This document shows, in pieces, positions 4,491 through 10,464 of a stretch of 64,000 bases of DNA; the stretch's first letter is position 1, and every line of letters starts with the position of its first letter. The stretch covers positions 868,001 to 932,000 of the forward strand of contig NZ_CP101156.1 in the NCBI RefSeq assembly GCF_024298845.1, written 5' to 3'. The DNA is from Natronosalvus amylolyticus. GTDB taxonomy: Archaea > Halobacteriota > Halobacteria > Halobacteriales > Natrialbaceae. Under the pieces are notes generated by a model. The model was given only the letters and a program-made list of their open reading frames with translations, made no database searches and was not told the origin of the DNA. The translations under genes and the position numbers were made by a program.

Positions 4491-5663
4491 CTAGATAACC
4501 CGTTCACGGAGCTGCTCGAGCTGCTTGGCGTTGTAGACTAATTTTACCGCATCGGTCGTCGGCGTGGCGACGCAGGTCAACCGCAGGTTCATCTCGTCGA
4601 CCTCCTCATCGGAGAGGCTCCGGTTGGCCTCCATCTCAACCTCACCATCGACCAGTACCGCCGCACAGTTGATACAGCCACCACCCCGACAGTAGAACGG
4701 CCAGTCGTACCCTTCTGACTCGGCCGCTTCGAGGATGTACTCACCCTTATCGACGGCCAGCGTCCCGTAGGCCTCCGCCGTCAGGTCGGCCTCGGCCGCC
4801 TTCTCGAAGAGATCGTCGTCCTCCAGCGACCAGCTTTGATCCTCGATGACTTCGTAGTCGAGGAACTCGACGGTGGCGCCAATCGACTCCGGTTTCACAG
4901 AGACGACCGGAACCGGCGAGAACCGGACCGTGCGTTCGGTGACGCTCCCGAGCAGGTATCGCCTGAGGCCGGTGCGCCCGTGTGTCCCCATCACGACGAC
5001 ATCTATCTCCGCCTCCGCCACGTATCCGGCGATCACCTCGTGTGGCCGACCGCTACGCGTGGCCGTGACGACCTCCACGCCGGCAGCTTCGCCCCGCTCG
5101 CGTACGTCATCGGTCGGCAGCGACTCCGTCTCGCGCCCGCCAGAAGCGACGTGAAGTGCGTGGAGCGTCCCGCCGACTTCGGACACGAGGTCGATCGCGT
5201 GTTCCGTGGCGGCCTCGGCCCCTTGACTCCCGTCGGTTGGGACGAGGACGGTATCGATCTCGAAGTCGCCGACGGTGTCTTCGTGAACGGTCACGACGGG
5301 GATCGGCGACTCCTGGAGGGTCTGTTCGGCCACGCTGCCCAGCAGGAACCGACCGATTCCCGTCCGACCGTGCGTCCCCATTACGACGACATCAACGCCG
5401 TGCTCCTCCGCGTAGTCCAGTATCACCCGGTAGATCGCCGTTTCCTCGTCGTCGATGATCTCGGTCTTCGGGGTTAGTCCCGCCTCGTTTGCCCCCTCTT
5501 GGATATCCCTTACGGCCTGTTCCGCTTGCTTTCGGTCACCCTGCTCGAGAACGGAGACGACGGTCAGATCGGCGCCGAATAGGTCGGCCATTCGAACGGC
5601 GACGGCTCCGGCTCGCTCCGCCACTTTGCTCCCATCCGTCGGCACGAGGATCTCGCCATACAT
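4491..5663 (-). CDS. Tandem universal stress protein domains fused to a 2Fe-2S ferredoxin
   Basis: A 390-residue protein made of three parts. Residues 1-135 and about 138-265 are two UspA domains, each starting with a VPTDGS strand and ending with the nucleotide-loop signature GTHGRTG...GSV. Residues about 265-390 are a complete plant-type ferredoxin of the haloarchaeal kind, including its N-terminal acidic insertion (DDDLFEKAAEAD). The cluster ligands are C325, C330, C333 and C364 (C-x4-C-x2-C-x30-C). The C-terminus LVYNAKQLEQLRERVI closely resembles free halobacterial ferredoxins. The fusion implies coupling of ATP/AMP sensing with electron transfer, but that role is inference. It is divergent from a heme-type membrane protein gene across 270 bases of A/T-rich DNA. 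Confidence 0.9.
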   Translation of the reverse strand: MYGEILVPTDGSKVAERAGAVAVRMADLFGADLTVVSVLEQGDRKQAEQAVRDIQEGANEAGLTPKTEIIDDEETAIYRVILDYAEEHGVDVVVMGTHGRTGIGRFLLGSVAEQTLQESPIPVVTVHEDTVGDFEIDTVLVPTDGSQGAEAATEHAIDLVSEVGGTLHALHVASGGRETESLPTDDVRERGEAAGVEVVTATRSGRPHEVIAGYVAEAEIDVVVMGTHGRTGLRRYLLGSVTERTVRFSPVPVVSVKPESIGATVEFLDYEVIEDQSWSLEDDDLFEKAAEADLTAEAYGTLAVDKGEYILEAAESEGYDWPFYCRGGGCINCAAVLVDGEVEMEANRSLSDEEVDEMNLRLTCVATPTTDAVKLVYNAKQLEQLRERVI

Positions 5664-5933: not shown

Positions 5934-6575
5934 ATGTCAGTTGACACGAGAAACGAACTCACTCACCATCTGGCAGTGGGAGTCGGTAGCGTCGTCTTCG
6001 CCGCGTTGCTGTGGGTGGCTGGGTATCACGAGCAGCGGGTCGTCGGAGCAGTTCCGTGGTTCCTCTTGGTTCTGGTACTGATCATCGGACCGACAGTGAG
6101 ACTCTGGCCCGGAATCAGACGCCGGTTCTCGGGTAATTTCCCGGTGAACTGGCGGGCTGAACTGGGGATCTGGTTCGCGATCTGGAGTGTCGTTCACCTG
6201 CTTTTCGTGTTTCACGCGAGAGACTGGGACGTCGTCGGCTACTTGGCAGACATGAGCCCGTGGGCGTTCGGATCGTTCGTCGCTGTGATCATGGCGGTCG
6301 GGCTCGCGGCCACCTCGAACAACCGTGCGTACGACTACATGGGTGGGAAAGCGTGGAAGTGGCACCAGACCGTCGGTGCGTACGCGATCTTCTGGCTCCT
6401 CGCCGTCCACATTTACGACAGAGCCTATCTCCGGCCTGGGTTCCCGTCCGAAGATCCACTCCACTGGCTGTACCTGATCACACTCGTTCTCGTCGTCGTG
6501 TTCCAGGGCGCCGCGTTCGCCAAAATCGTCTCCCACTATCGGAAGACGGGTGAGTATCCTTCAGGGTTGAACTGA
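5934..6575 (+). CDS. Ferric reductase-like / MsrQ-YedZ-like heme membrane protein
   Basis: A 213-residue integral membrane protein with about six hydrophobic helices and histidines placed inside them (WSVVHLLFVFH; WKWHQTVGAYAIFWLLAVHIYD). This is the pattern of the ferric-reductase-like transmembrane domain that binds b-type heme in MsrQ/YedZ. Such proteins pass electrons across the membrane, in MsrPQ to a periplasmic molybdenum enzyme. A sulfite-oxidase-fold protein is encoded 3.3 kb away, but the genes are not in one operon, so a pairing is speculative. The upstream ferredoxin-fusion gene is divergent. The ATG at 5934 gives a normal, short cytoplasmic N-terminus. Confidence 0.75.
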   Translation: MSVDTRNELTHHLAVGVGSVVFAALLWVAGYHEQRVVGAVPWFLLVLVLIIGPTVRLWPGIRRRFSGNFPVNWRAELGIWFAIWSVVHLLFVFHARDWDVVGYLADMSPWAFGSFVAVIMAVGLAATSNNRAYDYMGGKAWKWHQTVGAYAIFWLLAVHIYDRAYLRPGFPSEDPLHWLYLITLVLVVVFQGAAFAKIVSHYRKTGEYPSGLN

Positions 6576-9633: not shown

Positions 9634-9873
9634 GTATCATGGTCCTCGGGACTGCCCGTATTGGTTATAAACCACGTATCTGCCGGTAGTAAAGAGTTGG
9701 TTCGGATGAGCGACCGTTCCGCCCAGTTCCCGGAACGTTCACGGTGGGTGAATCTGCGGTTACCTCTCGGTTCTGGCGGAACGCGAGCGCTCGCCGGTAC
9801 ATTGAGGTACCACCTCTCTCACGGGTGGGCTCGAGACGGTACGGTTACGGTTCTCCCGCAACAACGCTGGCGT

Positions 9874-10464
9874 ATGAAAGACGTCACGGACCTCTACACG
9901 GAGTTTGGTTCGGACCGACTCCCGCCAGGGCAACGAGAGACATCGAAATTCCCCGTGCTCTCGAAAGGAGCAACACCCCAATGGGACCCCGATGGCTGGG
10001 AGTTTTCGGTCACAGGTGCCGTGGAAAATCCCGTTACACTCTCCTGGGAAGAGTTTCGCGAATTGCCGTCCGAGACGCAGGTGCAGGACTTTCACTGTGT
10101 CACCGGCTGGAGTAAGTTCGACTGTCCGTTTACCGGTGTCACCTTTCCCACGATTGCCGAGTTGGCTGGGGTCGACGATGACGCCTGTCACGTCCTCTTT
10201 TCGGCCCTGGACGATTACACGACCGACCTCCCGCTCGAGGACTGCATGCGAGAGGAGGTGCTGTTCGCCTGGGACTTCGACGGTGACCCGCTCGAGCGCG
10301 AACACGGCGGCCCCCTTCGGGTCGTCACGCCACATCGATACGCATACAAAGGCGCAAAGTGGGTCAACGGCGTCGAGTTCCTGACCGAACCCGAGTTGGG
10401 GTACTGGGAACGGCGAGGGTACTCAGAAACGGCGAATCCGTGGCGCGAAGAGCGGTACAGCTAG
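9874..10464 (+). CDS. Sulfite oxidase-like molybdopterin-binding oxidoreductase
   Basis: A 196-residue protein covering the molybdopterin-binding SUOX fold and lacking the dimerisation and heme domains of true sulfite oxidase; it is comparable in size with YuiH/MsrP-like proteins. The molybdenum-ligating cysteine is in DFHCVTGWSKFD. The later HGGPLRVVTPHRYAYKGAKWV segment is typical of cofactor binding. The substrate is unknown. The start at 9874 (MKDVTDLYTEFG) is chosen because family members begin there. A longer reading from ATG 9706 is open, and a TATA-like box at 9663-9670 suits it better, but the extra 56 residues look noncoding. The stop codon lies inside a 29-bp tandem duplication. 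Confidence 0.85.
   Translation: MKDVTDLYTEFGSDRLPPGQRETSKFPVLSKGATPQWDPDGWEFSVTGAVENPVTLSWEEFRELPSETQVQDFHCVTGWSKFDCPFTGVTFPTIAELAGVDDDACHVLFSALDDYTTDLPLEDCMREEVLFAWDFDGDPLEREHGGPLRVVTPHRYAYKGAKWVNGVEFLTEPELGYWERRGYSETANPWREERYS

Follow-up and report, generated by a model that had tools for sequence, protein, structure and literature searches.

A conserved Usp-Usp-ferredoxin fusion of Natrialbaceae and its genomic link to a six-helix membrane protein of the putative ferric-reductase type

The genome of Natronosalvus amylolyticus encodes a single polypeptide in which two Usp domains are followed by a complete haloarchaeal-type 2Fe-2S ferredoxin. This fusion is conserved in many related genomes, where its gene usually lies close to that of a six-helix membrane protein that we place in the ferric-reductase superfamily. 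The best reading, for which we would give slightly better than even odds (about 0.55), is that a cytosolic, nucleotide-responsive Usp-ferredoxin exchanges electrons with the membrane heme protein encoded next door. The window, that is the whole stretch of 64,000 nucleotides that was analysed, contains the following features of the system:

4491-5663, minus strand: CDS of the Usp-Usp-ferredoxin fusion, 390 aa, ATG start, a single uninterrupted frame
5274-5663, minus strand: Usp domain 1 (residues 1-130), with the ATP motif G96-x2-G99-x9-G109-S110 and the invariant D10
4890-5264, minus strand: Usp domain 2 (residues 134-258), with the ATP motif G226-x2-G229-x9-G239-S240 and the invariant D144
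4875-4889, minus strand: linker of about 5 residues (259-263) between Usp domain 2 and the ferredoxin
4494-4874, minus strand: haloarchaeal-type 2Fe-2S ferredoxin domain (residues 264-390), with the predicted ligands C325, C330, C333 and C364
5664-5933, no strand: intergenic region of 270 bp separating the fusion gene from the divergently oriented membrane-protein gene, a shared promoter region in clade A (defined below), in which a block close to the start of the fusion gene is conserved
5934-6575, plus strand: CDS of the six-helix membrane protein, 213 aa, of the putative ferric-reductase-domain (YedZ/MsrQ-STEAP) kind, with R74, H88, H144, Q145 and H159 invariant

The first-pass annotation had described two Usp domains with nucleotide-loop signatures, joined in one frame to a full-length haloarchaeal 2Fe-2S ferredoxin including its insertion, and both halves of this description are borne out. 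Pfam detects Usp (PF00582) in two stretches (E 1.1e-52, 178.8 bits for a cut-off of 24) and Fer2 at residues 301-369 (E 3.9e-13), while the NCBIfam model NF041393, “ferredoxin Fer”, is matched with 200.2 bits (cut-off 150) over positions 2-128 of its 128. The ferredoxin part gives end-to-end phmmer matches to the solved Halobacterium and Haloarcula ferredoxins; when structures are aligned, the 127 C-terminal residues are about 56-57% identical from end to end to haloarchaeal Fer (PDB 1doi, 1e0z), with the same ligands and the same N-terminal insertion. In an AlphaFold2 model of the fusion (mean pLDDT 82.5), residues 1-260 superpose on tandem Usp structures (3loq, Z 27.7; ATP-bound TTHA0350, 3ab8, Z 26.8) and residues 263-390 on the Haloarcula ferredoxin 1doi (Z 23.3, rmsd 1.2 Å). 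Because the latter superposition covers 128/128 residues, the halophilic N-terminal insertion is part of the fused ferredoxin. The tandem fold and both ATP motifs are those of the tandem Usp proteins of Archaeoglobus (3loq), TTHA0350 (3ab8) and Rv2623 (3cis), which, unlike the fusion, carry no ferredoxin. The boundaries first given for the reading frame are exact, and its strand, then unstated, is minus; the domain junction, placed near base 4870, falls close by, at residues 258-264 (base about 4875-4890); and the four cysteines named as cluster ligands are the right ones, identical in all 33 intact fusions that we collected.

Intact fusions are present in 27 of 125 genomes of the Natrialbaceae, among them those of Natrarchaeobius chitinivorans, Natronorubrum halalkaliphilum, Natronococcus amylolyticus and Natrialba swarupiae; two of the 27 first gave partial matches, and both copies proved full length on closer look. 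Three further families of the same order also harbor the fusion (in genomes G138, G139 and G253), which was not found outside the order among 295 genomes of the phylum. Across the 33 aligned intact copies, the cluster cysteines (C-x4-C-x2-C...C) and the aspartate of each nucleotide loop never vary; the first Usp domain has the full G-2X-G-9X-G(S/T) motif in 33/33 copies and the second in 32/33. A stop codon between the Usp and ferredoxin parts, which the first-pass annotation had named as evidence against a real fusion, occurs in none of the homologues found. An assembly or sequencing error joining two genes, the other concern raised at that stage, has a negligible probability: the intact copies come from numerous assemblies, among them closed plasmids of Natronococcus occultus and Natrialba magadii, and they form one clade. 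Chance is likewise excluded by the conservation of full-length fusions (84-87% and 52-59% identity) across numerous genomes that were sequenced independently.

The fusions split into two sub-lineages. Sub-lineage A (clade A) comprises the window copy and proteins of 390 aa with 75-87% identity to it, whereas sub-lineage B (clade B) holds most other fusions, which are about 410 aa long and 50-55% identical. A tree of the ferredoxin part gathers all fused domains in one clade (100/96) on a long branch, apart from the free haloarchaeal Fer, which is a separate small protein. Since the fused ferredoxin domains stand together in this way, the simplest reading is that the fusion probably arose once. 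Nearly all fusion genomes, that of N. amylolyticus included, also encode a free Fer. A neutral fusion of adjacent genes, with no joint function, would have been easy to produce by chance given how numerous Usp genes are (most of 50 matches in the N. amylolyticus genome), but one old fusion has been held down to about 50% identity, each of the three parts shows a dN/dS of about 0.1-0.3 within clade A, and the fusion is co-inherited with the membrane protein; we consider this explanation very improbable. Public annotation conceals the architecture: two fusions of about 410 aa (NC_019976.1:105367-106596 and NC_013923.1:200071-201318) are both labelled “ferredoxin Fer”, a name that rests on the C-terminal domain alone and overlooks the two Usp domains. 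The plasmid-borne genes of Natronococcus occultus and Natrialba magadii carry this annotation. The case exposes an annotation trap, the fusion being filed merely under the name of its last domain.

Within the first 16 kb of the window (antisense frames excluded), the sole other gene to be met repeatedly next to the fusion across many genomes is that of the 213-aa membrane protein. It lies at most 3 kb from 27 of the 33 fusion copies, in divergent orientation in eight cases (clade A), downstream on the same strand in 17 and in another arrangement in two; 13 of the 17 same-strand genes follow after a gap of less than 250 bp, nine of them 76-78 bp apart. The linkage thus occurs in several arrangements, so the association has survived rearrangement. 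Across the 125 genomes of the family, the membrane protein (at least 69% identity) is found in 25 of the 27 that harbor a fusion versus one of the 98 others, this single exception being a 66% complete assembly; the Fisher p of 7e-23 for the co-occurrence is a descriptive figure that ignores shared ancestry. All three fusion genomes from outside the family carry a relative of the membrane protein as well. No membrane-protein gene lies near six of the 33 fusion copies, and the protein is missing altogether from two fusion genomes (G007 and G102). In another genome (G092), a fusion-adjacent copy of the membrane-protein gene (contig C2, L076:9467-10113) is apparently frameshifted, and an intact pair is present elsewhere.

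Two further genes of the window deserve mention. An Oxidored_molyb gene (PF00174, sulfite-oxidase/MsrP superfamily) at 9661-10464 on the plus strand starts about 3 kb beyond the membrane-protein gene. Its PF00174 region (about 9967-10407, 3.4 kb from the membrane-protein gene) was considered as an MsrP-like acceptor and rejected, the pairing being absent from other genomes; the closeness is probably accidental, because no other gene from the first 16 kb of the window is a repeated neighbour of the fusion across several genomes. On the minus strand, positions 1053-2912 encode a membrane protein that combines a rhomboid domain with a long C-terminal region, adjoining the gene for RNA polymerase subunit L.

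The assignment of the six-helix protein combines several lines of evidence. The window protein itself gives no significant match in Pfam and a weak match to MamZ in NCBIfam (E 0.015). Seven of 31 relatives match PF01794 (Ferric_reduct) weakly (best E 3e-4), a family for which neither the window protein nor any other protein of the N. amylolyticus genome gives a match above the cut-off. A relative with 56% identity matches the MsrQ model with an E of 5.8e-5, below the cut-off, and identity with the MsrQ equivalog (NF003831) is rejected, the best relative tested reaching 22.7 bits for a cut-off of 130; the scores lying below this threshold, we limit our claims to superfamily membership and to a likeness in the way the protein would work. 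The AlphaFold2 model shows six long helices at moderate confidence (pLDDT 72.7). Foldseek alone returned no significant structural match (best E 0.6) and a PDB sequence profile search with the membrane-protein alignment nothing relevant, and a second look with VIA-align gave 12 top matches that are all STEAP, NOX, DUOX or SpNOX structures (Z 8.1-11.8), with cytochrome b561 next in rank. Since Z values of 8-12 can be attained by chance for helical bundles, the assignment leans also on the sequence motif and on the weak family matches.

This motif consists of R-x13-H in TM3 and a histidine in TM5. R74, H88 and H159 are invariant in 31/31 sequences and align to R77, H91 and H164 of E. coli MsrQ, which is about 21% identical to the window protein. 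An arginine in place of the first TM3 histidine, with the outer histidines retained, is the mark of the YedZ/STEAP branch (PMC3591440). From the modelled fold, the weak family matches and the R-x13-H...H signature, we place the protein in the ferric-reductase (YedZ/MsrQ-STEAP-NOX) superfamily. It would bind a heme b through the predicted ligands H88 and H159, and the arginine-rich loop 2-3 suggests that R74, K142 and H144 face the cytosol. The protein resembles MsrQ/YedZ and STEAP in its six helices, in the TM3 and TM5 motif and in having no dehydrogenase domain, and therefore needs an electron donor from outside; it differs from MsrQ in that it has no conserved MsrP neighbour and is tied to ferredoxins instead.

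A role for the cluster other than electron transfer would be that of a sensor, with the Usp pair as output, oxidation or loss of the cluster altering the binding of nucleotides or of a partner with no net electron transport. Every cluster ligand and nucleotide motif is retained, as such a switch would have it, and many clade B copies are set among stress genes, coding for other Usp proteins, DUF2267 and pyridoxamine-phosphate-oxidase-like proteins and P-type cation ATPases. These surroundings recall, by analogy, the mycobacterial hypoxia/dormancy gene set, to which Rv2623 belongs. The latter, a tandem Usp protein, governs growth, which it restrains through ATP binding (PMC2682197). However, the fusion keeps a whole ferredoxin and not a reduced sensor fold, and its tight linkage to a protein of ferric-reductase type points to electron transfer, so we regard a redox switch as an unlikely, if serious, alternative to electron exchange with the membrane protein.

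A second kind of ferredoxin is associated with the same membrane-protein family. Relatives of the membrane protein with 41-58% identity often adjoin a short 2Fe-2S ferredoxin with an RR-type signal and a lipobox (for example ...RRHVLLAAGTAGAAALGGCL...), and because of these two elements it is probably exported and lipid-anchored. Its gene lies directly upstream of the membrane-protein relative in five genomes (G089, G091, G092, G093 and G138), and near it in G304, with a separate Usp-Usp gene in between; no ferredoxin was found within 5 kb of the membrane-protein relatives in G031, G039 and G115. The same island of G304 also encodes, alongside the membrane protein, the Usp-Usp genes and the exported ferredoxin, one more 2Fe-2S ferredoxin-like ORF, whose N-terminal region includes a hydrophobic stretch (L177:163-750). 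Among the 125 genomes of the family the lipobox ferredoxin occurs in 17, and all 17 have the fusion, the membrane protein or both (p 6e-12); in G007 and G113 it is encoded 1-2 kb from a fusion. The N. amylolyticus copy lies outside the window, at positions 55794-56072 of contig C1 (L200:7795-8076), among several Usp genes. A Usp pair, a ferredoxin and a ferric-reductase-type protein therefore co-occur in two forms, as individual genes and with the Usp pair and the ferredoxin joined in one chain, which argues for a joint function.

The association of membrane-protein relatives with ferredoxins that have no Usp domains would also suit a simpler role for the Usp pair, which might merely anchor or dimerise the ferredoxin, or give it a stress-linked address, so that electrons pass and nucleotides have no regulatory part. 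The linkage to the membrane protein is itself silent on nucleotides. Such a passive tether is nevertheless hard to reconcile with ATP motifs that are complete in all first and in all but one of the second Usp domains, and with the invariance of both aspartates, and we hold it to be improbable.

We thus return to a Usp-ferredoxin that exchanges electrons with the membrane protein under the influence of nucleotides. The fusion is probably cytosolic, since it has no signal peptide. Haloarchaeal ferredoxins take electrons from 2-oxoacid oxidoreductases, and the ferredoxin of the fusion, if loaded with its cluster, would probably be reduced by 2-oxoacid:ferredoxin oxidoreductases in the same way as the free protein. 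The reduced fusion would then dock at the cytosolic face of the membrane protein, and the electron would cross by way of the heme, ligated by H88 and H159, and reach the outer face, where the lipoprotein ferredoxin or another acceptor would take it up. ATP, ADP or AMP bound to both Usp domains might govern the timing or the tightness of contact between the ferredoxin and the membrane protein, with the outcome that electron export would track the cell's energy or stress status. The fusion could act as electron donor or as acceptor, and its dependence on the cell's state could come through nucleotides or through stress-induced partners. The first-pass annotation had proposed that a link between Usp and ferredoxin couples nucleotide sensing with redox flow; this is plausible from the domain content, and the presence of a conserved membrane partner of ferric-reductase type strengthens it. 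The fullest version, a three-part transmembrane route made of the Usp-Usp-ferredoxin, the heme protein and the exported lipoprotein ferredoxin, in which ATP or AMP switches the flow under stress, is more speculative, and we put it forward tentatively as less probable than its negation.

Each part of this system is of a known kind. In FRD-Fer2 proteins (architecture M8 in PMC3591440) a ferredoxin serves a ferric-reductase domain, as proposed here, but within one bacterial chain, whereas the ferredoxin of the present system sits on a separate and probably cytosolic Usp protein. In a 2024 survey of Usp proteins from haloarchaea (PMC10791855), the only fusion partners named are permeases and Na+/H+ exchangers. 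The literature searched, which held few subscription papers, contains no description of a Usp-ferredoxin protein, in agreement with the earlier remark that there is no characterised example, and databases carry it just as “ferredoxin Fer”; the combination, together with its ferric-reductase-type partner, is new to that literature.

To our knowledge, Usp proteins occur throughout life and the regulatory targets of most of them are unknown. Because the fusion has a target attached and a likely partner next door, two or three proteins would suffice for a direct test of what Usp nucleotide binding controls. The NOX/STEAP/MsrQ superfamily was considered nearly absent from archaea in 2013 (PMC3591440), and our reading would add to it an archaeal, ferredoxin-linked branch. 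In the Natrialbaceae and their relatives, the system suggests that electrons are moved across the membrane in response to stress or energy state, a process for which there seems to be no earlier description.
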